The notes: generated by a model not told the origin, from the sequence alone. Shown: positions 26,401 through 46,229, counted from the first letter of the stretch. The stretch: 64,000 bases of DNA from Tannerella sp. (GCA_031285685.1 JAITVS010000315.1:1-64000); one strand, 5' to 3'. A program made the numbers and translations.

Positions 26401-26624
26401 ACTCCGGTGATGCGCGCCAGCATCGCTTCTAATTTTGAAGTAGCCTCCATCTCAACGATACGTGCTGAGTTGCCCGGCATACTGAAGCTGACGGTCAGGC
26501 TGGGTAATGTGCGCGAAGGCGACAGTTTGACCGTCAGTGACGGTATGACTGCCAACCCGATCAGGGATATCGCCACAAATGCGACGATGACCGTGAATGC
26601 TGATATGTGGGGCGTTTCTTTCAT
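23418..26624 (-). CDS. RND efflux permease, AcrB family (second pump)
   Basis: A 1068-residue inner-membrane RND protein with the duplicated 6+6 transmembrane layout and two large periplasmic loops. The TM4 proton-relay region reads LVIDNTIIMADH, one Asp followed by Asn instead of the Asp-Asp of AcrB, and the TM10 region (GITVNASIYLINEY) lacks the AcrB lysine. It differs clearly from the RND protein at 28433-31507. With only one adaptor in the operon, the two pumps may form a heteromeric trimer or alternate on one adaptor. Confidence 0.92.
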   Translation of the reverse strand: MKETPHISAFTVIVAFVAISLIGLAVIPSLTVKLSPSRTLPSLTVSFSMPGNSARIVEMEATSKLEAMLARITGVKNIKSTSGNNYGRITLELDKHASMDIVRFEASTIIRQTWPNLPSSTSYPTIYVNRPDEESARPLLVYNIDAMVSPIIIQQYAEEHIKPVLAQLPGIYKIEVSGATPMEWLLEYDISQLDALGITVNDIREAVGSYNRKESLGMVMFESNEHDKRYMRLSLSTETAGRPKGFHAEDIFLTDKNGHMIRLDKLVSVTYREEPPSNYYRINGLNSIYLSLTATEDANQLRLSKSVKEEIAQIKQLLPKGYEMHINYDATEHIDSELNKIYFRTTLTILILLLFVFLTTFNIRYLLLIILSLFFNISIAFIFYYLFSLEIQIYSLAGITISLSLVIDNTIIMADHYMRNRDRKVFLSILAATLTTVGALAMIFFLDEKIRLNLQDFAAVVMINLMVSLVVSLFLVPAAIENINIRKKLTRFRFRRLRFSPKKIVVYFNKLYFLIIKFLFRFRPVAFIILLLAFGIPVFLLPDKIEGESKWAERYNNIVSSSHFKEKIRPVIEKSLGGTLRLFAQKVYDGSYFTRNDETILTISASMPNGTTIQQMNLLIRQMESYLSQFKEIRQFQTSIYNPRRANIQVLFTKEAERSGFPYQLKSNVISKALQLGGGSWGVYGLQDHGFSNDVRENAGSMRVKVYGYNYDDLYVHADSLRERLLTYRRIKEVHINSQFSWYKEDYLEYIFSLNRQRMAAEDIRPYELYASVSPVFGRDINCGYVNGDEQIEYIKMSSKQSRLYDLWSLANMSRSMNGKYYKAGELTNITKTQTPQNIVKENQQYLLCLQYEYIGSAQQGNKILERELEQFNKDLPLGYSAESEGGYYWWNKKDNKQYLFLGLIILIIFFMTSILFNSLKQPLAIIFVIPVSYIGVFLTFYLFGLNFDQGGFAAFVLLCGITVNASIYLINEYNRILRRKPRMNPAKAYIKSWNIKIVPIFLTIISTILGFIPFMVGLDKEAFWFPLAAGTIGGLIMSLAGIFFYLPLFLIKRRIVILKRPRKKRKS

Positions 26625-26819: not shown

Positions 26820-26856
26820 GAAAGCAAATTTTAGTTGTCTATTAAAATTTGCTTTC
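26820..26856. repeat. Hairpin spanning the TolC stop codon
   Basis: A perfect 14-bp inverted repeat (GAAAGCAAATTTTA at 26820-26833, complement at 26843-26856) pairs the last codons of the TolC gene with the bases just after its stop. There is no T-run on the minus strand, so it may protect or process the mRNA 3' end. Confidence 0.5.
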
Positions 26857-31400: not shown

Positions 31401-31507
31401 GGCAACAGCGATACCGGCAGGGTAAAATAGGTGATCAATCCGATGATTACCATCGCCAGAAATGCCATCAATACGGCAATTGGCCGTTGTATTAAAAATT
31501 TAACCAT
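28433..31507 (-). CDS. RND efflux permease, AcrB family (first pump)
   Basis: A 1024-residue RND transporter starting MVKFLIQRPIAVLMAFLAMV, with a first periplasmic loop containing VQVSMPNSSAREVENTV. TM4 reads GMMIDNSIIITENI (one Asp) and the TM10 region VVTCGIIINDSIL (no lysine), so its proton relay differs from AcrB. The start ATG overlaps the adaptor's stop codon (TAATG), showing translational coupling. Substrate unknown. Confidence 0.94.
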   Translation of the reverse strand: MVKFLIQRPIAVLMAFLAMVIIGLITYFTLPVSLLPDIPIPDMTVQVSMPNSSAREVENTVVTALRRQLMQVTKLRDIRSETRDGSAQVNLRFDYGTNINLAFIEVNEKIDAAMNYMPRDLERPRVIKASATDIPVFYLNLTLKGDEKYGTTGTEHFLAMSEFAENVIKRRIEQLPEVTMVDATGIVSSQVQIMPDMNKLEIAGITLSDIETAINNNNIEAGSMIIRDGYYEYNVKFSSLLHTAGDIENIYLRKSDRIYQLKDLCSVKVVPEEERGFSLVNGKRAVTLAIIKQSAENMDNLKKSLDTTIDHFRSLYPDIEFTVNRNQTELLDYTIQNLKENFVIGFILICIVAFLFLGDAKSPTVIGISMIISLIMCFQFFYFFDKSLNIISLSGLILALGMMIDNSIIITENISQYREQGLSLEDACIKGTTEVITPMLSSMLTTIAVFLPLIFLSGIAGAIFVDEAFSVSVGLLVSYFTGIMFLPVLYKLVYAKNFTKRNLGDKIRRYQEGSTRGLFRWYDRWIDFTFAHKTICAILIVASLPLCVLMFRIIPKSGMPAVDQVELLTHIDWGENIHLDENRKRINALCHEIDPLTLEHSAYIGRQQFILENDQKMPSSESELYIKTENARMAEEAQEKIYGWIKNKYPLAVTSFAPPETIFEKIFVTGESDLITELYPRNRENSPEAAEIRRIEQQLEKLTGEHSEGVTFDKEISIHIDREKLLLYNVDYSEIYRLLKTAFRDNEVATLRSYQQYLPINIAGEEQTINEVISQTLIRTNAGSPEEQQQIPLSFFITTASTEGLKSIVAGKNGEYIPVSYQKVNDPEELMKKTKEEVSNMKAWDVSFSGNYFSNKKMLSELAVILLISILLMYFILAAQFESFLQPLIVLIEIPIDICAALVCLWLFGHTLNLMSAIGIVVTCGIIINDSILKIDMINELRKAGVPVMEAIHTAGHRRLRAILMTSLTTIIAMVPMMFSFDLGSEIQKPLAIAMISSMIVGTLVSLYIIPLVYWRIYARRKKE

Positions 31508-32589
31508 TAATCTTCCATTCGTTTCACGTTCGTTCCGTCTGCCAGGTGCTCGTTGCCGCTTATGATAATTTCATCACCTTCCTGAAGTGATTTGCTTGTG
31601 ATGGTGTAATACGTTGCGTTTTCCAATCCCGTATCAACATAATTCCATGCCGCTTTCCCGTCTTTATATGCGAATACGACCTGTTTGCCCGTACGCAGAA
31701 CGACAGCGGTTTTCGGTACGACCCATTGTTTGCCTAAGGAACGGAATACGCTGATACGCACATTCATTCCGTTGAATATCTTAGCATGAGGTTGCACATA
31801 TGCTTTCACTCTTATGGTGCCGTCCTTGTCTACACTTGGGTTGATGCTTGCAATGCTGCCGGTAGATTCGATATCGGGCGACGCGTATGACTGGACTTTC
31901 ACCTTATCTCCTGTTTTTATCAGCGGCATTTCATTTTCGAGAATCCGGAAGTCGACTTCCGGTTGTCCTTCGCTGATGATTGTGCAGAAAGGCTCCGATG
32001 CGTCGATTACGCAATAGGGTTTTGAAAAAAGGTTGGCGACCGTACCGGCGATAGGTGTACGGAGTATCGCGTTATCGAGATTATATTTTGCCAGGTCGTA
32101 TTGAATTCTGGCGTTGTTATATCCGCTTCTGATATTGGCCAGCTTAAAAATGTCCTCCGGGATGGAAGCGGAGTCGGCAAGTGAATAGCCTTGTCCGATC
32201 AACACATCCTGCAGCTCGAGATATGCTTTTTGCAGATTATCCTCTGCCTGCAAATAGCCGTTCGACAACTGGAATGTGTCAAGCATAGCAATGGCAGTTC
32301 CTGCCGTTATGCGGTCGCCGTTTTTAACGAATATTTTTACCGGAACATTTCCTGCCGAGGTAGAAACAAACTGTAGTTCGGCTATCTGTTGTGCGCTGAT
32401 TCGCCCGTTGCTGACAAGTTCATGTTCGAAATCGACCGTGCGCAACGTTTTGGTACGCACTTCCGTCTCTTCGGTGGGCAGGATTGTTTCGACCGACGTT
32501 TCCTCCTTGCCGTCATTGTTATTATCCTTCTGTCCGCAGCCGGTCAATCCCCAGATCAGAAATGCCCCTGCAATGAATTTCCAGTTCAT
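31507..32589 (-). CDS. RND periplasmic adaptor lipoprotein
   Basis: HlyD/AcrA-type membrane-fusion protein of about 360 residues with a lipoprotein signal (lipobox GLTGC, Cys18). It has lipoyl half motifs (VKIFVKNGDRITAGTAIAML and TPIAGTVANLFSKPYCV), a short helical hairpin and beta-barrel domains. The frame is open to 32667, but the ATG at 32589 (or 32592) gives the lipoprotein signal directly. First gene of the adaptor, RND, TolC, RND operon. Confidence 0.92.
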   Translation of the reverse strand: MNWKFIAGAFLIWGLTGCGQKDNNNDGKEETSVETILPTEETEVRTKTLRTVDFEHELVSNGRISAQQIAELQFVSTSAGNVPVKIFVKNGDRITAGTAIAMLDTFQLSNGYLQAEDNLQKAYLELQDVLIGQGYSLADSASIPEDIFKLANIRSGYNNARIQYDLAKYNLDNAILRTPIAGTVANLFSKPYCVIDASEPFCTIISEGQPEVDFRILENEMPLIKTGDKVKVQSYASPDIESTGSIASINPSVDKDGTIRVKAYVQPHAKIFNGMNVRISVFRSLGKQWVVPKTAVVLRTGKQVVFAYKDGKAAWNYVDTGLENATYYTITSKSLQEGDEIIISGNEHLADGTNVKRMED

Positions 32590-32768
32590 CATGATATTAA
32601 ATATTTGATTTGCGAATATACGATAATTTCGTATGTGCAATTTACCTAATGTGTTAAAATTTATCAAACAATAGTTTATTTAAGTAAATAATTTTTTATA
32701 ACTAAAAATGACGCGTGTTTAATGATTGTGTTTCAATGTTATAGATTTGCTTCATCTGATGGTTTATT

Positions 32769-33743
32769 TTAAATCTCTGTGATTCGGAAAACGTCAATAC
32801 AAGCATTATAGTTGACTGCAACAATTTGATTATCAAAAACACAGAATGTACTGTAAATATCTTCAGATAGAAAGAATGTCTTAACGTGCTTTATATCTTT
32901 CGATACATCAAACACGCATATTATATTGCATTTGTATTGTTCTATGTCATTGGCGATTAGTATGTATATTCTGCCATTTGCATAATAAATATCTTGTATC
33001 ATGATAAAATGACTGTTTGGAGCTTTTTGCTCATTTTCATATTTATGTATCTGTTTTTTTATCTCGGGAATGAGGGTTAGATCATAATTATTCAATAATC
33101 TTCCTTCATACGAATATTCTTGAAAAACAGGAAGTGCTTGTCCTATTACAAAAAAAGAGTTATCTCCCTTAATGAGGTGTCTGGAAGAATGTGATTTATA
33201 TTCAGAATTGTCCCATGTTTTGTTTTTTTCGCACATGAACCCTCATACGCAACAGCTATCAAATAAAACGGCTTGTAAACTGTCTGAAACGAATGAATGA
33301 AATATGAATTGCTCATTAACAAAAAAGCGTGTAAGACTGGTGAGTCTTGCTTCAGCAGGATAAGGGATGTGGCTAATATAGGCTCCATTAACAAATACTT
33401 CTATAGCTTGTTTCATTTCATTGATAGCATATATTGTGTCGTTTTCTATATGAAAGTGTGAACACCCGATGAATTCTCCGGGTCCTGAGCCCCGATTTCC
33501 AATTTTTTCTTTTAGATTGAATTGTTTATCTAAAGCGAACATAGCTTCACTATAATCAGAGAAATACAGTCGGTCTTCCGTCGCACTGAGACATCTGATA
33601 TTATCAGAGAAAATAGAAAAATCGCTTAGTTCACAAAATGTAGTGTCCGGAATTAGTCTGGAGGTCGTTTCTATATGCCTTTTTTGGCCACAAGAGACAG
33701 TACAATATAATAGAACTAAGAAGATTATAATTTTTGCATTCAT
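32769..33743 (-). pseudogene. Six-bladed beta-propeller lipoprotein interrupted by an in-frame TGA
   Basis: Two frames in the same phase are separated only by one TGA at 33243-33245. The first (from ATG 33743) has a lipoprotein signal (VLLYCTVSC) and the typical family segment GSGPGEF with ENDTIYAINEM. The second holds the C-terminal blades (IQDIYYANGRIYILI, STFCVFDNQIVAVNY). Joined, they give about 324 residues, slightly short for the family. It is the last gene of the peptide cluster. A nonsense mutation is most likely; sequencing error or readthrough remain possible. Confidence 0.8.
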
Positions 33744-33811
33744 TTTTTTATTGATTATATTTATAAATTCCAAGAGAAATATTATTTCCGGAACCATCGT
33801 TATTTTCATTT

Positions 33812-35740
33812 TTACCACCAGACCTGTTTGTTATTTTCGTATGTGAAAATTCTCTCTTCCTTTCCTTTTGTCAGATTTCTGAGCAAAAATAATGCATTAG
33901 AAGGAGCATTGTCGTATGTCAATGTTTGTATTTGCTTGTTCCCGGTTTGTTTTCCTAAAGAAATCCATTTGTTGTCCCAATAAAACAATTCGTATAATTC
34001 ATTGTCCTTTATAAAATTATCATCAGAACGGGGCAGGTATAGTATTTGGCTTATTTCTACAGCCTCTTTTAAATCCAAACCGACCCATTGATCATTTCTT
34101 GTTTGATCACAAATAGCATAGCTCAATGCATTACCGTCAAAAACTTTTGTCATTGTATGAACGGTATCATTTGTATAGGTATATGTGCCGATAATATCTC
34201 CGTTTATTTGTATTCCGTTTTTATCATAAACCTCAATTTCCGCAATATTACCTCCTGTGTGAGGTTGGGGTATGTATCGTATATATCTGTATTTCTGTTT
34301 GTCGTTCATATCAAATGTTTGATAATTATATCCGACGGTATCAGGGATAAACAATTCTTTAGGATTAGAAAATGCTTTGTTGTCTGCTAATTGGAATTTT
34401 CCTCCTTTTATAAATTCAACAAAATCCCACGCGCGATATTCCATATATTTTCTTTTTAACAGGATGGTCTGCAAATTATCTTTATCAGGAATCAGGTAGC
34501 GGATCACTGCCTGTTTATCAACTTTGACCGGATATTGCGCAGGAACATATTCGTCATTAATATAGTAAACAGGTAAGTATACGGCATCATATCCGATATC
34601 ATGAATAACGGCCTTATTGTTTTTGATGTCACCCCAAGCTATCGGAGACCAGTCTTCGTTGTTGAAAACGGCTATATAGACTCTTTTACCTTTGTCTTTG
34701 TTCTGTATTAAATGCTCAATGGGTAAATCGATTACCGGAATATATTCTTTAGTGACATCTTTAATTCTTGGATTTCTAAAAGCTGGGGGTAATTTTTCTC
34801 CATGGGCTAATATAGCCAAAGAATTAGGCTGTATTCCAAATGTCTTTCTGAATACTTTGGTGTATTTATTTCTGAACTTTTTTAGATGACCGTTTAAAGG
34901 CGTTTTTTCTCCTATCATGAAATCTTGGCTTTGGCCGTTATGAATAACGGCGCTCCATTCGTGTCCGTTTGCATGATTTGCCCATTGCGGTATATAATCG
35001 ATAGCAACGGGGATACCGAATGTCCTTCCTATAAATACGAACATGTTTGCAAAATCACGACAAGGGGCTACTTGCATGTGTTTGAGAAAAGACGGTTTAA
35101 TCGTCGGCATATTGTCGGGATAAAAATAACTATTTGTTTTGTACCTTCCGGATATGCTGTCGCAAATAGTAAACAAAGCACTGTCTGTCTGATAATCGAC
35201 ACGATCAAATGCATATTGAAAATAATTTTTGTAATCCTGTTCCCAATTTTCGAGTACTTCTGTGCCGATTCTGTAGGGTAAAAGATATTCACAAAAATCT
35301 TCAAAGCTAAGGTCTTTAGCCCATGGAGTCTGCCATGCCTCAAATGCATGGTCTATCCTTTGAATCAAATATTGTGATTTGATGCTTTCCAAGTCACTGG
35401 TTCTTTTCAAATCATTTAATTTATATCGTTCAAAAATAGAATCATAAAAATCCCTCATATCCAAAACCTCCATTGTTATTGGTGCCTTATTGATACTGTC
35501 CATTATCCGGTAATATTTATCCATCGATTTACCATGGGAAGTGTAAAAGCCATTCATATTTGAAATAAGAAATTCTGCCGCTTTTAACTTTAATGGTTCA
35601 TTTTGATAATGCTCCAATACTTTTTCCAGTTCCGTACGGTTCTCTCCGGCCAGTTCCAAAGCCCATTGTAGCCTGTCGTTTTCTTTTGAACAGGATATAA
35701 GTATTATTAAAGATAGAAGAAAAAGGAGTATGTATTTCAT
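33812..35740 (-). CDS. Transglutaminase-like lipoprotein with C-terminal discoidin-like domain (copy 2)
   Basis: A 642-residue lipoprotein (lipobox LILISC, Cys17). A helical N-terminal region (about 20-200) is followed by a transglutaminase/papain-like core with the likely nucleophile C227 in APCRDFANMF and H260 in NGHEW, a beta-rich middle, and a C-terminal F5/8-type region (about 500-600, VFDGNALSYAICD, WVGLDLKEAVEIS). It is paralogous to the gene at 35945, and both end in a QxWW tail. The protein could cleave or cross-link peptides or act as an inactive scaffold. It belongs to the NVEALA cluster. Confidence 0.85.
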   Translation of the reverse strand: MKYILLFLLSLIILISCSKENDRLQWALELAGENRTELEKVLEHYQNEPLKLKAAEFLISNMNGFYTSHGKSMDKYYRIMDSINKAPITMEVLDMRDFYDSIFERYKLNDLKRTSDLESIKSQYLIQRIDHAFEAWQTPWAKDLSFEDFCEYLLPYRIGTEVLENWEQDYKNYFQYAFDRVDYQTDSALFTICDSISGRYKTNSYFYPDNMPTIKPSFLKHMQVAPCRDFANMFVFIGRTFGIPVAIDYIPQWANHANGHEWSAVIHNGQSQDFMIGEKTPLNGHLKKFRNKYTKVFRKTFGIQPNSLAILAHGEKLPPAFRNPRIKDVTKEYIPVIDLPIEHLIQNKDKGKRVYIAVFNNEDWSPIAWGDIKNNKAVIHDIGYDAVYLPVYYINDEYVPAQYPVKVDKQAVIRYLIPDKDNLQTILLKRKYMEYRAWDFVEFIKGGKFQLADNKAFSNPKELFIPDTVGYNYQTFDMNDKQKYRYIRYIPQPHTGGNIAEIEVYDKNGIQINGDIIGTYTYTNDTVHTMTKVFDGNALSYAICDQTRNDQWVGLDLKEAVEISQILYLPRSDDNFIKDNELYELFYWDNKWISLGKQTGNKQIQTLTYDNAPSNALFLLRNLTKGKEERIFTYENNKQVWW

Positions 35741-35769
35741 GAATATTTAATTATCAGTTAAAAATGTTT

Positions 35770-35925
35770 TCATTTTATCATTTTAAAAAATCGCTCCCAT
35801 TTATATTTGCCTGTTTTCATGTCATTCGATTTCCATACGATGGTAGCTTTTCCGATCACAAGATCATCCGGTAATAACCCCCAGTATCGGGAATCCTGCA
35901 CAAGGTTTCCTGCCAAAAAGTAATA
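35770..35925 (-). pseudogene. 3' remnant of a second signal peptidase I gene
   Basis: The minus strand encodes 51 residues beginning YYFLAGNLVQDSRYWG and ending KWERFFKMIK before a TGA. They align along the whole length with the C-terminus of the intact signal peptidase at 37991-38863 (YYFMAGDLVRDSQDSRYWG to WDRFFKIIK), three residues shorter. A stop codon lies directly upstream, so the rest of the gene is gone. It shows that a signal peptidase/transglutaminase gene pair was duplicated and one peptidase was lost. Confidence 0.88.
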
Positions 35926-35944
35926 TTAAAATATTTATACTAAG

Positions 35945-37912
35945 TTACCACCAAATCTGTTCACCATCTTCATATGTGAAAATACGTTCTTCCTGTCCTC
36001 CGGCATGACATTTTAACCAAAGAAGTGCATTTTGAGGTACATTCTCATAAATTAAAGAATCGCATGTCGCCATTTTCGTACCTAAAGAAGTCCATTGATT
36101 ATCCCAATAAAATAATTCATAAGTGGTTCCTTTACAGATTAGATTACCATCATTTTTAGGACAATACTCAATACGTGTGATTTTTTGATTCTTTCCTAAA
36201 TCCAAGCCAAACCAATAATAAGTCAAGAGAGTTTCCGTATATGTGGAGTAATCCATATCAAAAGCTTTCTGAATAAACTCTTTCTCAATACGATCTCCAA
36301 TCGGTTGACCTTCTAATAAGCGTTCGATGCCTTTGTCATCAGTCGTAAAATAGGATGTTTCAGCGATACTGGATCTATTTTCTCCGGGAGGTAAATAACG
36401 TACATAACGAAATGATTCCGGTAGATCGACTTTTACTTTTGTTATATGCAAGGGAGGCTTTTTAATGCAATGCAACAGTTTTGGATTCTTAAAATCAGCA
36501 GTGTGTGATCCCTCAAACCGGCCACCGACGATTTTATAACCTCGTCGCACCCAGTGGCCGAAAAGCGGATATTTTCGTTTTAATGTTATGCTTTGAAGAT
36601 GTTCTTTATCCGGAATGATTTCATGCTGTGTGTTTTGTTGAAGCAGTATCGGGTAAGTGATTGGTTGAATGCCATTTTCATTTTTATGAATAACCGGTAA
36701 ATATATGACATCCGTATCCAAATGTTCAAATATGATTTTTTTACCTTTCACAGAGGTGTATGCTGCCGGCTGCCAATTTTTCACAGCGGCAAATGTATAT
36801 AAAAATGCATACTTCGTATTTATATTCTGTGTTATTTCTATTTTTCCAGATAGGCCATATGCATCGGAAACATCTTCCGTGTGGATATTTTTAAAATAAG
36901 CCAAACGATTCTTCTCTTTTAGAAGGTCTTTATAATTCCGGATAATAGGGTAAGAACTTCGGTATATCTTTGATACTTTTTTCTTTGAATATACATTAAT
37001 TTCCATTTTGTCTTTGTTTTCTTTCATATAATCACCTCCGTCCAGCAGAGAGGCATCAATTTTGTTGAACTGTTTGGGTATAGAGTCCTTTTCAAAAATA
37101 GAATAAGTATTTTCATTTTCATTGATGAGCGATACCCAGGAATGTCCGCTTTGACTATAATTAGCCCAGTAAATAATATAATCATAAGAGGTGGGGATTC
37201 CTAATGAACGCAGAATGCATACAAGATAGATACAGCGATGAGTACAAGTTCCTGACTGCAATTTATGTAAGGCCAACACATCCGGAGTATAAGGATACTC
37301 AGGAGTTGCCAGCTCAAAGTTGTCTAAAACATGATGATAGATAACAGAAAAGGCTTTTTTAATATCTGTAACATCTTTGATTAAAGGTTGATATGCATTA
37401 TATAGCGTATCGCGGTAGTCCGTCAAAGATTCGTTCATTACACGATATGGGAGGATGTATTTACAAAACAACGATTCGCTTATTTCACTACCCCAGGGTT
37501 GAGATTGTACAACTTTGATTGCATGTTCAATGTTATTAATTAAATATGCTGCATTTATTTTTTCGACATCTCCTACTGCATGAATATTAGAGTTGGTAGA
37601 ATTTATGCCTGACAAATGAATCCATTGTCTCTCAATTTCAGATAGGCTGATTTTTCCCCGGATTGTATCAATCATCGTATGGTATGTATCTATGCCTTTT
37701 CCATAAAAAGTGGCATGTCCCGGCATATTATCAATCAGGTAATAAGCGTATTTTAATTTCATCTTGTCACCTTTATAGTATTTGAAGATTTTCTCCAGTT
37801 CCTCTTTGTTGTCTCCAGCCAGTTTCATTACTTCCGCATGGTGTTGAGAACATCCGACAAACAAAGTAATAGCCATAATTGTATATATATAATTCCGGAT
37901 AGACCTTATCAT
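35945..37912 (-). CDS. Transglutaminase-like lipoprotein with C-terminal discoidin-like domain (copy 1)
   Basis: About 655 residues from the ATG at 37912, which gives a lipoprotein signal (lipobox LFVGC, Cys21). The frame is open to 37987. The domain order matches the 33812 gene: helical N-terminus, transglutaminase-like core with C223 in SGTCTHRCIYL and H257 in SGHSW, a beta-rich middle and a discoidin-like end (FRYVRYLPPGENRSSIAE, YWFGLDLGKNQKI). Cys and His of the triad are present; I cannot place the Asp with confidence. It follows the signal peptidase gene by 78 bases. Confidence 0.85.
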   Translation of the reverse strand: MIRSIRNYIYTIMAITLFVGCSQHHAEVMKLAGDNKEELEKIFKYYKGDKMKLKYAYYLIDNMPGHATFYGKGIDTYHTMIDTIRGKISLSEIERQWIHLSGINSTNSNIHAVGDVEKINAAYLINNIEHAIKVVQSQPWGSEISESLFCKYILPYRVMNESLTDYRDTLYNAYQPLIKDVTDIKKAFSVIYHHVLDNFELATPEYPYTPDVLALHKLQSGTCTHRCIYLVCILRSLGIPTSYDYIIYWANYSQSGHSWVSLINENENTYSIFEKDSIPKQFNKIDASLLDGGDYMKENKDKMEINVYSKKKVSKIYRSSYPIIRNYKDLLKEKNRLAYFKNIHTEDVSDAYGLSGKIEITQNINTKYAFLYTFAAVKNWQPAAYTSVKGKKIIFEHLDTDVIYLPVIHKNENGIQPITYPILLQQNTQHEIIPDKEHLQSITLKRKYPLFGHWVRRGYKIVGGRFEGSHTADFKNPKLLHCIKKPPLHITKVKVDLPESFRYVRYLPPGENRSSIAETSYFTTDDKGIERLLEGQPIGDRIEKEFIQKAFDMDYSTYTETLLTYYWFGLDLGKNQKITRIEYCPKNDGNLICKGTTYELFYWDNQWTSLGTKMATCDSLIYENVPQNALLWLKCHAGGQEERIFTYEDGEQIWW

Positions 37913-37990
37913 AATTATAATCATTCCGGTAAAAGGTGACTTATATTTGATTGTAAGAAGATCGTGTGTTAGATTTGATTGTATCATTGC

Positions 37991-38863
37991 TTATTTAATT
38001 ATTTTAAAAAATCTGTCCCAATTGTATTTACCGGTTTTTGAATTTTGCGACTTCCATACAATCGTAGCTTTTCCAATCACCAGATCATCCGGCAATAATC
38101 CCCAATAGCGTGAATCCTGAGAATCTCGTACCAGATCTCCTGCCATAAAATAGTAATCCTGCTGGAATGTATAATTATCCAACGTGATATTGTCAAGATA
38201 TACCTCACCTTTTTCTATTGATATGTATTTCTTTGTTTCGTATTCTATTATATTTTTGTATAATAGAATGTTCATGCTGTCTATGCGAATATTGTCGTCT
38301 TTTCCTGGTATATACAATGGACCGAAATGTTTAATTGTCCATCGAAAATGTGTCGTATCTTTAGGGAAAACATTGCGGGTTTTTTCCTTAAAGGAAGTCT
38401 CATCTTTTTCAGATAAAGCTTTTTGACGTTCCACGTGTCCTAAACCTTCCATTACTCCTATTACCTTATAAATCCCATTATCAATATAAAATGTATCTCC
38501 CGGAATTGCGACACAACGTTTTACATAAAAGATATTTCCCCCCTGCTTGATTTTATTGGGCGTACTATATGGAAAATCAAAGACGAGCACATCATTTCTT
38601 CTGACTTTACGCATACCGTTTATACGTTTCATTTTTGTTTTTCTACCTTTTAGAAACCCTGGGTTTTCATATATTCTCGGACCTAAAATCAGTTTGTTGA
38701 CTACAATATGATCTCCTGGTAAAATCGAAGGGGCCATGGATGGAGTCGGTATATAAAATGAGGCAAACATAAAGACTTTCATGATTATGGTAAGTATGAT
38801 GATAATCATGAGAAGAAGAACAATTTTGCCTAATTTCCTAAAAAGTATTTTAATTTTCATCAA
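37991..38863 (-). CDS. lepB: Signal peptidase I
   Basis: Type I signal peptidase, 290 residues: one N-terminal membrane helix (about 13-36), catalytic Ser42 in PTPSMAPSILPGD, catalytic Lys115 in FYVKRCVAIPGD, and the C-terminal box AGDLVRDSQDSRYWG. It overlaps the O-antigen-ligase-like gene by 14 bases, so it is translated as part of the peptide cluster rather than standing as a housekeeping gene. Its likely substrates are the cluster's own exported proteins or peptides, which is inference. Confidence 0.93.
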   Translation of the reverse strand: MMKIKILFRKLGKIVLLLMIIIILTIIMKVFMFASFYIPTPSMAPSILPGDHIVVNKLILGPRIYENPGFLKGRKTKMKRINGMRKVRRNDVLVFDFPYSTPNKIKQGGNIFYVKRCVAIPGDTFYIDNGIYKVIGVMEGLGHVERQKALSEKDETSFKEKTRNVFPKDTTHFRWTIKHFGPLYIPGKDDNIRIDSMNILLYKNIIEYETKKYISIEKGEVYLDNITLDNYTFQQDYYFMAGDLVRDSQDSRYWGLLPDDLVIGKATIVWKSQNSKTGKYNWDRFFKIIK

Positions 38864-40658
38864 GTATTTCTTTCATTTTATGTCTCATTTCACGTACGGC
38901 GGTCGATTGTACTTTCGGTTCTTTGGTAAGTACAATCCGCGCGTTTTTTTTAGCCTTTTCTGCTTCACCGGTATCCATATACATTAACGCCATCAGGTAG
39001 TATGGATAAAGACGGCTTGGAACGATATGGGATGATTTTATGAAACATTGTTCCGCTTTGTCATATTGTTTTAAAGCATGGAAATTTTTACCCATAATAT
39101 TGTACAACATCGGGTCGCAACTTATTTTAATAGCTTTTTTCAAAACACCGTTGCTTTCTTCATATAGTTCCGATTTAGACAAACATTGCGCATATTCAAA
39201 AAGAAATTGAATTTGGTCGGATAGGAGGGGATATATGCTGCGGTATTCATTTGCGGCGTTTTTGTGATTTCCGAAATTATAGGACATCTTTATGTTATTC
39301 CACTTTTTATAAGCATTGTAAGTAGGATAGTGGTTATATAGGCATAGCGATACGATCATAAGGCCGCAAAATGCGAATGCTATGGTCACCGGCTTTGGTA
39401 TTGTAAGACCTTTTTCTCCGGTGTTGATAAACGCGAGTAGAAAAACGAGAACAATCAGAAACGGAAGGACACTAAAAGGATATGATGCACTTGCAGCAAT
39501 CAATAAAGCAATCAGTGAAGCTGTAGGCGCGATTTTTCTTCGCTTAATGCCAAGATATAAGCTGTAACCAATGATTCCGAAAAAAAGCAAAAAAACAATA
39601 ATCCCCTGCTCCGCACATATTTGTAGAAATTCATTAAACGCATATTCGGGGTTGCCGGCCACGCGTTTTTCATCATCCGTACCATATCCGGCATCGAAAT
39701 AGGCGGCTTGTATATGTCCATAGCTTCCTGAAAAATTTCCAATACCAATCCCCATCGGATTTTGTTTGATCAGTTCAATCGTATTTTTCCAAATAAATGT
39801 TCGTCCGTCTGCAGAGTCCTTTTTGAGATGATACATTCCGAAACCACCTGCAACGATTAAGAACAATGCGATAAAAGCGACAAAAGCACATCTTTTTTTA
39901 TTAGAAGCTATGAAAGATTTTACTTTTCTGTTTTCAGCAAAAAAGAACAGTAAAACAAAACCGCATCCTCCGATTGCAGCAATCCACGAGATACGGCTCA
40001 TCGCTGCCGGCAGAATTAAAACAGAAGCAATAACAGTAAGTGTGGAAATTCCCCCAAGAAAATATATTGGCATATTGCGGGGATGATACTTAACTTTGCA
40101 ACAAGTTTGGTATTTAAATGTATAAAAAAACGCCATAGGCAAAACCGTTGCAACATAACAAGCAAAAGGTCCCGGATTGAAGAATGAACCGGTTATGCGG
40201 AACAGGTTATGTTGTGATTGCTCGAAGCCGTATAATTGTTTTAATCCCCATATTGCTTCTGTTAATCCTGTGAGAATAAAGCACGCTGAAAGCCAATATG
40301 ATGATTGTTTATTGATTTGGAAAACGAATCTGAAATAGAAATATAGGATAGGGATTAGTAGGGATAGTATATGTTTGGTGGTTGTTTTCTCATAGCCCGA
40401 ATATATTATAAAAAAAAGAGAAGTGCACATAAATAGTACAATAAAACTATCCATCGTTCCAAATTGTACTTTTTTTGCATTAATAATGATTAAGCCAACA
40501 GATGTAATAGCAATAATCTCTATCGATAAGTGAAACCCCAAAAAAAATCCTGAAGTAATGCCATTATTTAAATATGGAAAAATGACAAAAACAGAAAAGA
40601 GTATTGCTGAAAATGGCATTATCCAAATTAAAGGTATCATTTCTTCAGGTTTGTTCAT
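38850..40658 (-). CDS. O-antigen ligase-like polytopic membrane protein with C-terminal TPRs
   Basis: This 602-residue protein has about a dozen transmembrane helices (roughly residues 10-430), a periplasmic loop with the Wzy_C-like sequence NPMGIGIGNFSGSYG, and a C-terminal tetratricopeptide region (about 455-590, LYNIMGKNFHALKQYDKAEQCF). Such proteins ligate or polymerise glycans, or occasionally glycosylate proteins. Finding it inside a peptide/signal peptidase operon suggests a surface-modification role, which is inference. It precedes lepB with a 14-base overlap. Confidence 0.85.
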   Translation of the reverse strand: MNKPEEMIPLIWIMPFSAILFSVFVIFPYLNNGITSGFFLGFHLSIEIIAITSVGLIIINAKKVQFGTMDSFIVLFMCTSLFFIIYSGYEKTTTKHILSLLIPILYFYFRFVFQINKQSSYWLSACFILTGLTEAIWGLKQLYGFEQSQHNLFRITGSFFNPGPFACYVATVLPMAFFYTFKYQTCCKVKYHPRNMPIYFLGGISTLTVIASVLILPAAMSRISWIAAIGGCGFVLLFFFAENRKVKSFIASNKKRCAFVAFIALFLIVAGGFGMYHLKKDSADGRTFIWKNTIELIKQNPMGIGIGNFSGSYGHIQAAYFDAGYGTDDEKRVAGNPEYAFNEFLQICAEQGIIVFLLFFGIIGYSLYLGIKRRKIAPTASLIALLIAASASYPFSVLPFLIVLVFLLAFINTGEKGLTIPKPVTIAFAFCGLMIVSLCLYNHYPTYNAYKKWNNIKMSYNFGNHKNAANEYRSIYPLLSDQIQFLFEYAQCLSKSELYEESNGVLKKAIKISCDPMLYNIMGKNFHALKQYDKAEQCFIKSSHIVPSRLYPYYLMALMYMDTGEAEKAKKNARIVLTKEPKVQSTAVREMRHKMKEILDEN

Positions 40659-40697
40659 GGGTATCGCTCCATAATAAATGATTTTTATACAGAAGAA

Positions 40698-41720
40698 CTA
40701 TGATATAATTTTATCAAGACTTAAATAAGCAAATTGTATGTTTTCGTCTAAACTCATTATTATTCGGTTATTGTCCTTATCATAACAAAAGTCCAATATT
40801 GAATATTCTGTTTCTAATGTTTGAATATAAGTGCCGTCTATACTAAAAATGAGAAGTTGCGTAGGATATCCGTTCTCGGAATTGGAAAAGCGGTCTTTGC
40901 CATTACCATAGGATACAATTATTTTATCATTACAAAATAAAACCTTTTCATAATATCCGAATTTATTTGTTGTTTTATTGTCCCATTTTTTACCATATAT
41001 ATTATATTTAAAGTTCCCATCGAGATCATAAAAAGTCATTAAATCATGATAATGATAACATTCGACATACGCGTTATGTTCTGTAGACGCAGCAAAGCAA
41101 ATTCGTTTTTTCTCAATTTTGGGATGTTTGTATTTCATTAATTTTATTTCGCCTGTGTTGGTTTTGATTTTCGCTACTGTGTGATTATATCCCGAATTTC
41201 CAGTTGGCTCAACAATTCTCCCTATTAATAAGGTGTCATTAATGTATTGGTAATTATCTGGAAATTGCCTTTCATTAAGTGTCATTTTTATTTGTGGTAT
41301 ATATCGTGGATTTGTAATAACGCTATCCATGCATAAATCGAATATAGTTTGTTTTCCATAATCCGTTACATAGATTTTATTATTAGCTTCATTTATTCCA
41401 ATAAAACCTATAGATGCTATTTCATTTGCGCCCTGTCCTCTGTCTATGATGCTTGTTACATAATTATAGTTGTTTTTATTGAAAATATGGATTAATTTAT
41501 CTATAGATCTACCATCTGATATTAAGAGATAATTATTGATTGTGTATAAGCGAGCGAATTGCCCAATTAAAACGTCTTCAATCTCTATCTCCTTGATATA
41601 TTCCTTTACAAAAAGAATATTATTGCGTTTGTTTTGGTATCTTTCAGTGTCGGAACTATTTTTGCAACCCGGGCAACAACAAATGACTAAGATTAATAAA
41701 TATATAATTGTTGTTTTCAT
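40698..41720 (-). CDS. TolB-like six-bladed beta-propeller lipoprotein
   Basis: About 340 residues from the ATG at 41720, chosen because it gives a lipoprotein signal (VICCCPGC, Cys19). The frame is open to 41786. The sequence shows the BF3164-like propeller pattern: FNKNNYNYVTSIIDRGQGANEI and INEANNKIYVTDYGKQ early, blade repeats through to NNRIIMSLDENIQFAYL. Probably an outer-leaf lipoprotein that binds a ligand or partner. It follows NVEALA peptide 1 and a perfect palindrome. Confidence 0.82.
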   Translation of the reverse strand: MKTTIIYLLILVICCCPGCKNSSDTERYQNKRNNILFVKEYIKEIEIEDVLIGQFARLYTINNYLLISDGRSIDKLIHIFNKNNYNYVTSIIDRGQGANEIASIGFIGINEANNKIYVTDYGKQTIFDLCMDSVITNPRYIPQIKMTLNERQFPDNYQYINDTLLIGRIVEPTGNSGYNHTVAKIKTNTGEIKLMKYKHPKIEKKRICFAASTEHNAYVECYHYHDLMTFYDLDGNFKYNIYGKKWDNKTTNKFGYYEKVLFCNDKIIVSYGNGKDRFSNSENGYPTQLLIFSIDGTYIQTLETEYSILDFCYDKDNNRIIMSLDENIQFAYLSLDKIIS

Positions 41721-41754
41721 ATTATTGATTATATAACTTATTTGACAAATTGAA

Positions 41755-41794
41755 ATGCAAATATGACGCTCTTGCAAGAGCGTCATATTTGCAT
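41755..41794 (-). promoter_or_regulatory. Perfect 40-bp palindrome between peptide 1 and its propeller gene
   Basis: Positions 41755-41774 (ATGCAAATATGACGCTCTTG) are exactly complementary to 41775-41794. In RNA this makes a very stable hairpin five bases after the NVEALA peptide stop. No T-run follows on the minus strand, so an mRNA 3'-stabilising or partial-termination element that raises peptide over downstream expression is the likely role. Confidence 0.7.
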
Positions 41795-41799
41795 AGTTA

Positions 41800-42030
41800 T
41801 TACCATTTAGCTTCTTTTACATAAGTATGCCATGTTCTACACCAGCAACCATTGCCAGATTGGTCTAAACACCCATTGGGGCAATCCGAACTTTCACTAG
41901 CTAGAGCCTCTGCATTGTCCAATGATATGTAAGATAAACCGTTATCTTGAGAGTTTACATTCACATTAAATGCAGCCATTGCTGCGATAGCTAAAACGGC
42001 AATTGAACCGAAAATTTTCTTTTTGCTCAT
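41800..42030 (-). CDS. NVEALA family precursor peptide 1
   Basis: This 76-residue precursor has a basic start (MSKKK), a hydrophobic export helix (about 6-21) and the family motif LDNAEALA at 37-44, here with Ala in place of Val. The 32-residue remainder holds four cysteines (50, 54, 62, 64) and several aromatics. The 44-residue leader aligns without gaps to peptide 2, while the C-terminal part differs completely, a leader/core layout. Cleavage after ALA44 would fit signal peptidase I. The function of the family is not known to me. Confidence 0.9.
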   Translation of the reverse strand: MSKKKIFGSIAVLAIAAMAAFNVNVNSQDNGLSYISLDNAEALASESSDCPNGCLDQSGNGCWCRTWHTYVKEAKW

Positions 42031-42141
42031 AATTTGTTATTTTAAATTTATTGTTTTATAATCAATATGTTAGCTGTATTTATCATTTCAACAACATAAA
42101 CCTTGTCGGGTTTCAAAAATTATTTATACTTTTGCCCTCTA

Positions 42142-42221
42142 CCTCCTTTCTTTTTAGGAGGGAAACTGGGGCGGAAGAGTTGTTATTTTCATAAGCTGAG
42201 AAAACTCTCCGCCCTTCTTCC
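42142..42221 (-). promoter_or_regulatory. Two consecutive hairpins upstream of peptide 1
   Basis: On the minus strand a long imperfect stem (GGGCGGAGAGTT, complement of 42203-42214, pairing with 42169-42181, with extra GGGAA/TTCCC pairs outside) is followed by a short stem (42142-42147 with 42156-42161). They lie in the 196-base gap between the thioredoxin-like gene and NVEALA peptide 1. They could end the upstream transcript or structure the peptide-1 leader. I see no clear promoter box here. Confidence 0.5.
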
Positions 42222-42226
42222 CAATG

Positions 42227-42793
42227 TTATAATTTAGCTTCCCTTTCTGTAATTACCTTTTTATACAATGTCCAGATGCCCGGATTATATGACGGATTAC
42301 CAACTATTAAAACCTTATTGTCCTTGTCGAGCAGGAAGCATTGATATTCGGTTTTAGAAGGGAAGCTGTTTAATTTGTCGATCTTATTTTCTTTATCTAT
42401 AAATACGGGATGACGAAATCCGTTTTGTTTGAATATGAATTGTAACTCTTTTTCATCTTTCTTTTTAGGCTGGAAGAAAAATACAAATTCAGGCTTTTGG
42501 TTAAATACAGAATCGGAATCGTCGATAATCTTTTTCCATTCGGCTAATTTTAACCGGCAACTGGTACATCCCAAAGAGTCTACATAGAGCATAATCTTAT
42601 AGTTATCGTTATGTAAATCGATGCAGCTGGTATCTCTGCCCATTGATGTACACACTATTCCTTGTGGAAATTGAATCTCTTTTCCGGTCCATTCGGTCAC
42701 GATTTTTATCGCATCGTCTTTTTGATTGTTTTTTTTGCAGGAAGAAAGGCCGATGATGAAGAATATTGTGATAATGTATATGTGTTTTTCCAT
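42227..42793 (-). CDS. Thioredoxin-like lipoprotein with CxxC
   Basis: This 188-residue lipoprotein (lipobox GLSSC, Cys19) resembles the peroxiredoxin/TlpA fold of Bacteroidota: a strand-CxxC-helix (LYVDSLGCTSCRLKL, C76 and C79), FVFFFQPKKKDEKEL, HPVFIDKENKI and a final CFLLDKDNKVLIVGNP. It may reduce or isomerise disulfides in the periplasm, and the Cys-containing NVEALA peptides next door are natural candidate substrates. It lies 12 bases after the propeller gene in the same operon. Confidence 0.83.
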   Translation of the reverse strand: MEKHIYIITIFFIIGLSSCKKNNQKDDAIKIVTEWTGKEIQFPQGIVCTSMGRDTSCIDLHNDNYKIMLYVDSLGCTSCRLKLAEWKKIIDDSDSVFNQKPEFVFFFQPKKKDEKELQFIFKQNGFRHPVFIDKENKIDKLNSFPSKTEYQCFLLDKDNKVLIVGNPSYNPGIWTLYKKVITEREAKL

Positions 42794-42805
42794 GCATTTT
42801 TGTTA

Positions 42806-43838
42806 CTAAATATCGAATTTATAGAGTTTGGCTTCATCTCCTATGTGTATTCCGTATACGGCGTTATCTTGTTTATTGTAACAGATTGCGTATAGTGGGA
42901 CGTTTGGTTTGTAACAAGCTACCGGATTACCATTCCAGTCGAAAACCATCAGATATTCGCAATGATCGAATGTTAATCCCGCTTCGTCGAATGATTTCCC
43001 TGAATAAATGGTGTAGATGTATTCGTCGCTTGTAGCGACATCGAAAAAGCCGTTTTTATTGCTTCGCCTGGTCGAAACGTGCGGATCCTCCATGCTGCCT
43101 TTGACAACGATATCCTGATAATGAAAGTCCAACTTTTTCAGGTTGATGATGGAGTCCTTGTTTATTCCGTTGATATCGATGACTCCGTTGTTGAAATTGA
43201 TAGCCACAAAGCGCGTCATATCCGGTTTGATAGCGATCTTGCTGCTTATGTAAATAAGGCTTTTGGTGAAATTGTCGAGCTCTTTATATTTATTTTGTAC
43301 GCGATATTCTCCGAAGAAACTTGTTTTTTCATTCGACGGATTGTAATGCATGTAGCGCCCTTCCCTGAAACAGCCTGATGTAATAAAACCTTCCGGCCCC
43401 CTGATGATGGATGTATATGATCCATGATCTGAGGGCAGGAAGGAAAACATAGTTTTTTTCAAATGAAAGGGAATTTCTATAATACACCTCTTGTTACATT
43501 CCGCTGTAATAACCGCATCGTCTGCCGTAGAGATATATGTTATATTTAAAGCTTCACCAGGGCCTTCGCCCCTTTTTAGTAGTGTTGTTTTTTCCAAAGT
43601 GGAGCAATTAACAACGCAAATGATATCTTCATCATTGTTTTGTACATATATATCCTTGTTATTCATTACGATAGATACCGGTTTATAGATGCCTAAATCA
43701 TCGAAAGTTATAACGACTTGTCCTTCAATATTCTCTACAGATTTGAAACATTTTGTAGGATGTATATTCAAATCGCCCTCGCTAGAGCAGGATACACAGA
43801 AAAAAAAGAAAAATATATATATGTACTCTGGATATCAT
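42806..43838 (-). CDS. Six-bladed beta-propeller lipoprotein with frameshifted signal peptide
   Basis: The long frame (42806-43771) encodes a BF3164/TolB-like propeller (KRGEGPGEALNITY, DNAVYGIHIG) but has no ATG at its head; it opens upstream as FCVSCSSEGD, a clear lipobox. An ATG at 43838, 9 bases after the NVEALA peptide 2 stop, begins a signal peptide (MISRVHIYIFLFF) one frame off. Removing one T from the T8 run at 43800-43807 joins them into a 343-residue lipoprotein. The shift may be real, phase-variable or a sequencing error. Confidence 0.75.
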
Positions 43839-43847
43839 AATTAGTTA

Positions 43848-44063
43848 TTACTCCATCGCCAAACCAGTAGTCCATCCGTTTATGGTACAATACCCTCTTA
43901 CTTTAATACAGGTAAGGGGAGCGGTTTCCTGTGCTAATGCTTCTACATTATCTAAAGAAACATCAGAAATCCCATTTTCGTCTGAATTAATATTCATATT
44001 AAAAGCTGCTAATGTTGCTATAGAAATTATAACAATGGAACTAAAGAGTTTTTTTTTGTTCAT
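43848..44063 (-). CDS. NVEALA family precursor peptide 2
   Basis: This 71-residue precursor has a basic start (MNKKK), an export helix (about 6-21) and LDNVEALA at 37-44, the exact family motif. The 27-residue C-terminal core has two cysteines (52, 59). The leader shares 27 of 44 residues with peptide 1 with no gaps, while the cores do not resemble each other. It is the first gene of the minus-strand cluster, behind a -7 promoter box and a direct repeat, and divergent from the histidine kinase. Confidence 0.92.
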   Translation of the reverse strand: MNKKKLFSSIVIISIATLAAFNMNINSDENGISDVSLDNVEALAQETAPLTCIKVRGYCTINGWTTGLAME

Positions 44064-44091
44064 AGTATCAAAAATTTTAATTATTTTTGGA

Positions 44092-44099
44092 CAAAGATA
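44092..44099 (-). promoter_or_regulatory. -7 promoter box for the NVEALA peptide 2 operon
   Basis: The minus strand reads TATCTTTG (TAnnTTTG) about 29 bases before the ATG at 44063. The -33 TTTG box is absent at the normal spacing, as expected for an activator-dependent promoter. Confidence 0.65.
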
Positions 44100-44120
44100 G
44101 GGTGCGAGAAATAAATGAAG

Positions 44121-44140
44121 GTTCCTTTTAAGTTCCTTTT
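44121..44140 (-). promoter_or_regulatory. Direct repeat, candidate response-regulator site
   Basis: GTTCCTTTT occurs at 44121-44129 and again at 44132-44140, an 11-base repeat unit. It sits 21 bases upstream of the -7 box on the minus strand, where OmpR/PhoB-type activators bind direct repeats one helical turn apart. The adjacent response regulator is the natural candidate. Confidence 0.5.
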
Positions 44141-44167
44141 TTATGTTGCAACGATATTTTTATTTAT

Positions 44168-45544
44168 ATGAACAGGAGGGTTAAAATTTCGATATATGCG
44201 ATTGTCGCTGCGATAACCATATTGCTGTTTATGCAGTATTACTGGATAGAAAAGATGTTTCGCGTAGAGCAGAGGCAGATAAAAACTCAGGCCTCATTAT
44301 TGCTGAATGATGCTCTGTCTTTAGAGGTTGCATATTCCAGACTGGAGCGTTCTAGTGCGTTAGATAGAGAAGGGATTTCTGTAGAAAATGAGGGCTGGGG
44401 AGGAAATTTTGAAAATAAAACGGTGGTAGTACATGTTGTTTATCCCCAACCGACTAAATTTGTGAAAAAATGTGAGACGGAAGAAGAGTGGTATGAGTAT
44501 ACAAAAAGTGTTTATTGTGAATATCATATTTCGGGAATAAATTTGATTCGCCTTGATTCGGCTTATAAGGTTGCTTTGGGAAGGTATGCTATAACCTTAC
44601 CATTTGTTTTGGTGAAAAGGGATAGCTCTGATATGGTTTTGGAACAAATGCCGGCTGATATTGATTACAACCGTTATAACTTATCGTTAGATACAATACC
44701 GTTAGGTATAGATGGCAAAGATTTTCTGGTAGCCCGCTTTGACGGGTCGTACTACGGCATGTTCCGGCAAATGAGAAATACTGTGTTTATTTCTTTAGGG
44801 ATTGTACTTCTGCTTGCCGCTATTCTTATATATGTAGTCCATACGATATTTTACCAGAAGAAAATAACAAGGCTGAGGAATGATATGGTAAATAGTATTA
44901 TACATGATCTGAGGGGACCGGTGACTTATATCAGAAAGGCGCTTCCTCGCATAAACGTGGGTGAATCACAGCAAAAATATATCGACGCGATGAGGCGTAA
45001 AAATGAACGCATGGAGCTGATGGTAGAAAAACTATTGATTACCTCCGTCGGTAACAAGGCGATCAGTCTTCGTCCGGAGCCGGTATCTTTATGTGAATAT
45101 ATCGGTGATATTGTTGATCAGTATAACGGGGATAACGAAGGTTTGGGAATCCGGTTTTTATGTGAAAATACTTCGCTCATGGCAACTATAGACCGGCTTC
45201 ATTTTGGGAATGCGGTGATGAATCTGATTGATAACGCGATGAAATATTCCAACGAAAAACCGTATATTTGTGTTCGATGTTATGAGGAAACAAATTATAT
45301 TTGCGTTTCGGTAAAGGATCATGGTATAGGCATTCCTCAGGAATATATGCGTTATCTTTTCGAAAAGAATTTTCGTGTGCCGGAACAGAGATCTCTGCCC
45401 AGATATGGGTTTGGCCTTGGATTGAACTATGTGAAGATTGTAGCGAAAGCGCATGGCGGAGATGTGGAGGTGAGAAGTGAATATAAACAGGGGAGTGAAT
45501 TTATCCTGATGATCCCAGTAATTAAAAAGAAAGGCAATGCGTGA
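44168..45544 (+). CDS. Sensor histidine kinase
   Basis: This 458-residue two-component sensor has TM1 at about 8-24, a periplasmic domain of about 180 residues and TM2 at about 206-228, then a HisKA domain with phosphoacceptor H246 in IIHDLRGPV and an ATPase domain with N-box NAVMNLIDNAMKYS (from 348), G1 DHGIGIP (384-390) and G2 GFGLGL (414-419). The periplasmic part (NLIRLDSAYK) resembles Bacteroidota RprX-type kinases. It overlaps the response regulator gene by 8 bases and is divergent from NVEALA peptide 2. Confidence 0.94.
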   Translation: MNRRVKISIYAIVAAITILLFMQYYWIEKMFRVEQRQIKTQASLLLNDALSLEVAYSRLERSSALDREGISVENEGWGGNFENKTVVVHVVYPQPTKFVKKCETEEEWYEYTKSVYCEYHISGINLIRLDSAYKVALGRYAITLPFVLVKRDSSDMVLEQMPADIDYNRYNLSLDTIPLGIDGKDFLVARFDGSYYGMFRQMRNTVFISLGIVLLLAAILIYVVHTIFYQKKITRLRNDMVNSIIHDLRGPVTYIRKALPRINVGESQQKYIDAMRRKNERMELMVEKLLITSVGNKAISLRPEPVSLCEYIGDIVDQYNGDNEGLGIRFLCENTSLMATIDRLHFGNAVMNLIDNAMKYSNEKPYICVRCYEETNYICVSVKDHGIGIPQEYMRYLFEKNFRVPEQRSLPRYGFGLGLNYVKIVAKAHGGDVEVRSEYKQGSEFILMIPVIKKKGNA

Positions 45545-46229
45545 TGGGAAGTATTTAATCCTTTATGCAGAGGATGATAAAGAATTGGCAGAGCTGTATA
45601 TTGATGATTTTCATGACAGTGGCTATGATGTAATCTGGGCTAAAAACGGACTGGAAGCTGTGGCGTTGTATAAAAAACATTCCCCGGATATTGATCTGGT
45701 ATTGCTTGATATAGATATGCCCGGATTGGATGGGTATCAGGTAGCAGAGGAGATAAGAAAAACGGATTTGCGTACGCCTGTCATCTTTTTGACATTGTTG
45801 CCGGGTTCTGATGATGCGATTAGAGGCCTGGATCTGGGAGCTGACGACTATATCCGTAAGGATATTAATAATAAAGAATTGTTAGCCAGGGTACGCCGTA
45901 CTATACAGAGGGGTTCTCTAAAACAAAATCCGGTTATCAGCATCACTCCGGATACGCGTCTTGATATGGGCAGCCAGATTTTAACTTCATGTGGTTATTC
46001 TCAAAAACTATCTTTTCGTGACGTGAACCTGTTGCACCTGCTTTTTGCCAATAAAAACAATTCTCAAAAAAGAGAATGGGTTATATCCCAAATATGGAAA
46101 GAGAGTATAAATGGAAAAGAATACATGAATAAAAGCATTTCCAACCTGCGCAAACTGATGTCTAAAGATGAAAAAATACAGCTAATAGCAAATCGTGGTG
46201 ATAGTATCATGCTAATGGTTCGTGATTGA
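45537..46229 (+). CDS. Response regulator, OmpR-like winged-helix type
   Basis: This 230-residue partner of the preceding kinase has a receiver domain with acidic pocket E12-D13-D14, phosphoacceptor D58 in LLDIDMPGLDG, T86 and K108 (in RKDI, where most regulators have KP). The C-terminal domain (about 130-230) looks like a winged-helix DNA-binding domain (REWVISQIWKESI, NKSISNLRKLM). It probably controls the divergent peptide operon through the direct repeat at 44121-44140, which is inference. Confidence 0.92.
   Translation: MRDGKYLILYAEDDKELAELYIDDFHDSGYDVIWAKNGLEAVALYKKHSPDIDLVLLDIDMPGLDGYQVAEEIRKTDLRTPVIFLTLLPGSDDAIRGLDLGADDYIRKDINNKELLARVRRTIQRGSLKQNPVISITPDTRLDMGSQILTSCGYSQKLSFRDVNLLHLLFANKNNSQKREWVISQIWKESINGKEYMNKSISNLRKLMSKDEKIQLIANRGDSIMLMVRD

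Follow-up and report, generated by a model that had tools for sequence, protein, structure and literature searches.

The window, the whole 64,000-nucleotide stretch of Tannerella sp. DNA analysed here (GCA_031285685.1, JAITVS010000315.1:1-64000), comes from a MAG that is 92% complete with 5% contamination. It contains a gene cluster that extends from a regulator pair at 46229 to the end of a downstream RND efflux operon at 23418. All genes named in an earlier note on this DNA are present, but its boundary at 32769 was set too short, since conserved synteny places the efflux operon within the cluster. The features are as follows, from the regulator to the pump.

45537..46229, plus strand: OmpR-family response regulator; the best match is the RprY model, far under its cut-off
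44168..45544, plus strand: sensor histidine kinase with a TM-periplasmic-TM sensor homologous to that of one-component regulators
43848..44063, minus strand: NVA2, class A NVEALA precursor; position and class match 21/22 regulator-adjacent peptides
42806..43771, minus strand: 6-bladed propeller (TolB_like), partner gene of NVA2
42227..42793, minus strand: thioredoxin-like CxxC lipoprotein with a conserved D-S-x-G-C-T-S-C motif
41800..42030, minus strand: NVA1, class B NVEALA precursor; peptides of its CPNGC..GxGCxC type are also encoded in other loci
41755..41794, minus strand: 18-bp perfect hairpin, directly 3' of the NVA1 stop codon and ahead of the propeller gene
40698..41786, minus strand: 6-bladed/NHL-type propeller lipoprotein, partner gene of NVA1
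38850..40658, minus strand: Wzy_C (O-antigen-ligase superfamily) membrane protein with C-terminal TPRs (Wzy_C 78 bits)
37991..38863, minus strand: LEPB, dedicated signal peptidase I paralogue (TIGR02227, 98 bits; Ser42 and Lys115 invariant)
35945..37987, minus strand: TGL2, transglutaminase-like discoidin lipoprotein (Transglut_core and F5/8)
35772..35898, minus strand: lepB remnant, a second 3' end with 80% nucleotide identity to LEPB
33812..35740, minus strand: TGL1, transglutaminase-like discoidin lipoprotein (Transglut_core and F5/8; C227 and H260 invariant)
32769..33818, minus strand: 6-bladed propeller gene, apparently broken into two ORFs (33243-33818 and 32769-33236)
31507..32667, minus strand: RND periplasmic adaptor (MFP), position kept in relatives
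28433..31507, minus strand: RND permease 1, conserved synteny
26842..28338, minus strand: TolC-like outer-membrane factor (OMF), a name given on sequence and position; relatives have homologues in the same place
23418..26624, minus strand: RND permease 2 (ACR_tran), conserved synteny

The one-strand layout with short gaps or overlaps is borne out: minus-strand genes overlap by 14, 7 and 1 bases, and most gaps measure 3 to 101, the larger ones being 196 after the CxxC gene, 204 after TGL2 and 217 after the OMF gene. Past the regulator, two further propeller-type lipoprotein genes (47925-50351; DUF4221 and DUF5128/DUF4934) stand without an NVEALA gene, adjoined by a HipA-like gene (46640-47923). 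A tandem OmpH-like pair (18871-20199, plus strand) beside a PD-(D/E)XK gene lies outside the cluster.

Homologues were sought for TGL1 in 149 genomes of the order, for LEPB in 120 genomes of the family and for the Wzy_C protein in genome contigs; profiles made from the window proteins served to annotate the neighbourhoods. Conservation of the neighbours beyond close strains, on which the earlier note had made its reading depend, holds in the related genomes. The recurrent order is divergent regulator, NVEALA, propeller, CxxC, NVEALA, propeller, TGL, LEPB, TGL, Wzy_C, MFP, RND, OMF and RND. The cluster occurs in Tannerellaceae, other Bacteroidales families and Sphingobacteriales; it spans gut and oral Bacteroidota and reaches Dysgonomonadaceae, Butyricimonas, Tannerella forsythia and the common gut commensals Parabacteroides and Bacteroides, and a second order is reached with Sphingobacterium and Parapedobacter. 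The 80 named loci found through Wzy_C share this gene order and contain LEPB in 63, a propeller in 60, MFP/RND in 45, TGL in 42, NVEALA in 40 and CxxC in 33 cases, counts that are lowered because many loci come from MAGs cut at contig ends. The LEPB-anchored locus set agrees, its genomes overlapping with the Wzy_C-anchored set so that the two counts are not independent. Across six high-quality Tannerellaceae genomes, 11/11 Wzy_C relatives lie ~15 kb or less from LEPB. The annotation of B. thetaiotaomicron (BT0662, O-antigen ligase; BT0664, propeller; BT0667, lepB; BT0669, RND adaptor; PMC10434189) describes the same gene set. One 2.5 Mb genome (G243, loci L221 and L222) carries 24 NVEALA matches on many contigs, duplicated cassettes among them. 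A literature search found no description of this gene cluster, and NVEALA went unmentioned throughout 5.39 million open full-text papers.

At the genomic level the cluster is modular. Of 62 genomes with NVEALA matches, 18, some of them incomplete MAGs, have no match to the dedicated LEPB, and several NVEALA loci in LEPB-less genomes retain just the regulator, peptide, propeller and CxxC genes. These minimal loci imply that regulator, peptide and propeller form the core, with LEPB, Wzy_C, TGL and the pump as an accessory maturation/export block.

Both NVEALA precursors proposed for the window stand, on the strength of a canonical leader and synteny, though at 23.0 and 22.3 bits they fall below the PF14055 gathering cut-off of 27 bits. 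The same genome has three other PF14055 places, two of them above the cut-off. The shared leader consists of a basic N-terminus, a transmembrane segment, a ~24-residue spacer and then L..N[VI]EALA, with a short variable tail behind it; the window peptides read NVEALA and NAEALA at this point. In NVA2, whose gene is divergent from the kinase gene, a 44-aa leader ending in NVEALA precedes QETAPLTCIKVRGYCTINGWTTGLAME (27 aa, 2 Cys, C-x6-C). The NVA1 leader ends in NAEALA and precedes SESSDCPNGCLDQSGNGCWCRTWHTYVKEAKW (32 aa, 4 Cys); NAEALA is unmatched by the regular expression used, so NVA1 lies outside the automatic peptide counts. From the loci, 117 distinct NVEALA-like peptides were taken, with motif statistics based on 116. 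N[VI]EALA is almost invariant among these and is followed by a variable tail, with Glu at +3 in 81%. Cysteine makes up ~9% of mature residues and is even in number in 104/116 mature peptides, which supports disulfide formation and, with it, the proposal of exported, disulfide-bonded peptides. The Bacteroides O-glycosylation motif D[ST][AILVMT] is found in just 7/116 mature peptides and is therefore not a general feature.

At the level of primary structure, the NVEALA peptides fall into two classes. Class A has two cysteines in the arrangement C-x5-8-C, typically CxGxGS[VIL][DE]C, and class B mostly four or more. Peptides with two cysteines account for 21/22 of those beside a divergent regulator vs. 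7/86 elsewhere (Fisher p 2e-15, an optimistic value given that the sequences are phylogenetically related). The sole exception has a third cysteine within the same motif, and in a further set the regulator-adjacent peptide had two cysteines in 7/7 cases. NVA2, beside the window kinase, fits class A with its C-x6-C.

The gene that follows a peptide gene encodes a propeller in 122/139 cases. Strong hairpins stand directly 3' of 34% of NVEALA genes vs. 2% of other cluster genes, with class B at 44% and class A at 12%. Hairpin sequences vary between loci, so it is the structure rather than the sequence that seems to be kept, and its effect is probably a high peptide-to-propeller ratio. Promoter-like sites in a promoter/terminator scan were at chance level.

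The signal peptidase I assignment at 37991-38863 is secure, with 98 bits to TIGR02227 against a cut-off of 47 and an invariant Ser42/Lys115 dyad. LEPB belongs to a separate subfamily of ~290-300 aa (E <1e-38 for most), whereas other signal peptidases have ~470 aa and E values near 1e-20. The lepB remnant between the TGL1 and TGL2 genes suggests tandem duplication of a lepB-TGL unit, then loss. In genomes that have the dedicated lepB, 59/131 Pfam NVEALA matches lie within 12 kb of it, where <1% is expected; this clustering is not due to chance. Gene linkage makes LEPB a candidate protease for NVEALA precursors, although cutting by LEPB cannot be universal, since NVEALA loci also occur in genomes without it. 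These loci, and the position of the EALA site ~24 residues past the hydrophobic segment, would suit uncleaved, membrane-anchored miniproteins that control propellers and sensor from the periplasmic face, with lepB and pump serving another substrate. We consider this improbable: a nearly invariant AxA with its flanks, followed by a variable region, is typical of a processing site, and genes of the dedicated lepB subfamily lie near the peptides far more often than chance would give.

The two proposed transglutaminase-like discoidin lipoproteins (33812-35740 and 35945-37987) are likewise upheld. TGL2 scores 23.9 bits against a Pfam cut-off of 23 and TGL1 19.9, below it. An AlphaFold model (pLDDT 88) predicts a transglutaminase core, with VIA-align Z ~9 to factor XIII/TG2 (rmsd ~4, ~190 residues aligned), and the catalytic residues C227 and H260 are invariant in 34 cluster-type sequences. 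The N-terminal part is helical, and the C-terminus is a CBM62/F5-8-like, galactose-binding-like domain. The order-level search also returned a second TGL type (~520 aa) in unrelated contexts, so TGL alone does not mark the cluster.

The core fold, the invariant Cys and His and the galactose-binding-like domain of TGL, together with a probable excess of peptide, raise the question of a surface matrix or appendage in which TGLs cross-link or attach NVEALA peptides as its building blocks, propellers and the CBM-like domain act as scaffolds, and the regulator controls assembly according to envelope state. Such a structure is unlikely, in our view, given that just 42/80 loci have TGL and minimal loci lack it entirely. 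The mature peptides are also highly variable, with no conserved Gln/Lys acceptor positions seen in their alignment, and a regulator-specific peptide class would not be expected of a building block.

The protein described as O-antigen-ligase-like with TPRs does carry a Wzy_C domain (77.8 bits against a cut-off of 31.7) and TPRs, but the ligase histidine is missing. The ligase residues of E. coli WaaL are R215, R288 and the catalytic H338, and the catalytic histidine of the N. meningitidis enzyme is H349 (PMC3643930). In the window protein both arginines are kept (R222 and R286), and the position aligned with the histidine is F341. This position is invariantly Phe in A1, Phe or Tyr in nearly all others, and His in one. 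A true O-antigen ligase is rejected on this ground, and the Wzy_C protein should not be called a ligase. In Parabacteroides, a second, diverged Wzy_C/TPR gene lies at the locus end, downstream of the RND operon (L180, L181 and L187). Six cluster proteins and the regulator were run against PADLOC models without a match, and a known anti-phage defence system was rejected.

The CxxC lipoprotein at 42227-42793 proves to be thioredoxin-like, and its homologues often have a fused C-terminal DUF1573. In the cluster of another family (L067:5903-7012), a MauE/DoxX membrane protein is encoded between the CxxC and LEPB genes and hints at thiol redox supply. Cysteine-rich peptides, a CxxC lipoprotein, RND efflux genes, the MauE/DoxX neighbour of that one locus and the presence of some B. 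thetaiotaomicron homologues in an iron-response table (PMC10434189) could reflect an envelope response to redox or metal stress. In that case the peptides would be metal binders or reporters of disulfide state; the response would come from the RND pump and the thioredoxin-like protein, and the sensor would read the oxidation state of the peptide. We think this hardly probable: fold changes in the iron table go both ways, most P values given for these genes are >0.1 and there is no significant coherent change (PMC10434189), and diverse peptides paired with individual propellers are unexpected for a generic metal buffer.

Two-component regulation holds for the window, where the divergent pair at 44168-46229 combines a HisKA/HATPase kinase with a receiver-wHTH regulator, but such a pair is the minority form and most relatives have a one-component regulator. 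The kinase scores 74.6 bits for HATPase_c and 24.7 bits for HisKA, just under the cut-off of 26.9; the response regulator reaches 119 bits against the RprY equivalog cut-off of 370. The usual regulator of the relatives is a single protein that joins a sensor (TM, ~150 residues, TM) to an OmpR-type DNA-binding domain (Trans_reg_C). Homology links this sensor with the one in the window kinase and with those in four further kinases encoded close to related clusters; kinase and one-component sensors align over 219 columns with an hhalign probability of 99.2. A divergent NVEALA gene lies within ~1.3 kb of 13/14 full-length one-component regulators in the six high-quality Tannerellaceae genomes. One kinase with a similar N-terminus (G235) lies away from NVEALA matches, so the sensor type may not be exclusive to the cluster. 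A PDB fold search with the modelled sensor domain (pLDDT 79) gave nothing better than E 0.05.

Three propeller genes had been reported, and all are present at 42806-43771, 40698-41786 and 32769-33818, the last of them apparently broken. It is split at an A/T homopolymer into 33243-33818 and 32769-33236, with propeller similarity detectable in the N-terminal half only; sequencing error, decay and slippage are candidate causes. The true start of the gene at 40698..41786 is probably ~22 codons downstream. At 43760-43850, the ATG of the TolB-like propeller and its lipoprotein signal lie in different frames with a T-run between them, an apparent frameshift that possibly reflects error or phase variation.

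Sequence distances of class A peptides correlate with those of the sensor (r 0.75, 22 pairs). In 16 triples this correlation was 0.83, and 0.67 given the propeller, while that of class A peptide with propeller given the sensor was 0.05. Over 100 non-redundant pairs, peptide and propeller distances correlate at r 0.49, a value that falls to 0.23 when propellers are exchanged inside their loci only (p 2e-4), and for the non-2-Cys peptides the values are 0.41 vs. 0.23; p-values for partner tracking are optimistic, as the genomes are related. As judged from these distances, class A peptides track the sensor and other peptides track their own propeller. That the co-variation of peptide and propeller survives within-locus swaps supports a partner-like role for propellers, in line with the suggestion of receptor or immunity functions. 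Such tracking would fit cognate recognition, and it can also arise from co-inheritance of adjacent genes, without binding.

Our leading interpretation, to which we give slightly less than an even chance, is that the cluster encodes a secreted disulfide-peptide system under regulation, with class A peptides as the signal and class B peptides as effectors that have propeller partners. The precursors would be exported by Sec, and the cluster-encoded signal peptidase I would most likely cleave them after ALA; the housekeeping LepB is not expected to cut that far from the hydrophobic segment. The freed cysteine-rich peptide would form disulfides, perhaps aided by the thioredoxin-like lipoprotein, with the transglutaminase-like and Wzy_C/TPR proteins acting in later maturation or attachment. 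The MFP-RND-OMF-RND pump may then take the product or a substrate across the outer membrane. The class A peptide would be sensed by the divergent membrane sensor, in the window a kinase/regulator pair and elsewhere the fused one-component protein. Class B peptides, in excess over the propeller owing to the post-peptide hairpin, would act as effectors, each bound by its cognate surface propeller as immunity protein or receptor. This division into signal and effector is not absolute, because class A genes also have a propeller next to them. A broader version is possible, though we hold it with more reserve: a Bacteroidota-wide peptide pheromone/effector system, in which a membrane sensor reads a disulfide-ring NVEALA peptide and switches on peptide-propeller cassettes, with maturation by the private signal peptidase, TGL and the histidine-less Wzy_C protein, and RND export.

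Peptide quorum sensing in Bacteroidota is, to our knowledge, largely unknown. If the pheromone reading is true, Bacteroidota own a private peptide language whose peptide-regulator and peptide-propeller pairs can be read from sequence, and many propeller lipoproteins without annotation, as well as a branch of the O-antigen-ligase superfamily that lacks the histidine, would gain a function to look for.

Several parts of the cluster resemble known families. The uncharacterised Pfam family PF14055 has the NVEALA-motif leader and Cys-containing tail in common with the window peptides, but covers the small protein alone; its description includes neither the division into two classes nor the link to a regulator nor the maturation module. 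WaaL and PglL (PF04932) share the Wzy_C domain and two arginines with the cluster protein, which differs in having Phe (Tyr in a few distant homologues) for His and C-terminal TPRs. TGL shares the core fold and Cys/His with the transglutaminase-like superfamily (factor XIII, TG2, 3isr, PNGase fold), but differs in being a lipoprotein with an N-terminal helical part and a CBM62/F5-8-like C-terminus. New here are the two peptide classes with their regulator link, the apparent tracking between peptide and partner, and a Wzy_C protein that lacks the histidine and keeps both arginines. SdpC/SdpABI of Bacillus subtilis comprises a Sec-exported, signal-peptidase-processed disulfide peptide toxin with a regulator and immunity; the likeness is one of system layout, by description, and the propeller and RND parts are absent from it.

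The closest functional analogy lies in bacteriocin loci under pheromone control whose precursors have a leader in common. The blp, com and pln loci of Gram-positives are pheromone-regulated bacteriocin loci with shared double-glycine leaders. Unlike their Gly-Gly leaders with a C39 peptidase-ABC transporter, the leader here is a TM segment plus NVEALA, ending in EALA, with a signal peptidase I paralogue as candidate protease; no ABC exporter is among the recurrent neighbour families of related loci. The RND pump, propellers, TGL and Wzy_C proteins have no counterpart in blp, com or pln. What the cluster has in common with them is a set of small precursors with a common leader, one beside a membrane sensor/regulator and the others each with a partner gene, and candidate leader peptidase and exporter genes within the same cluster.
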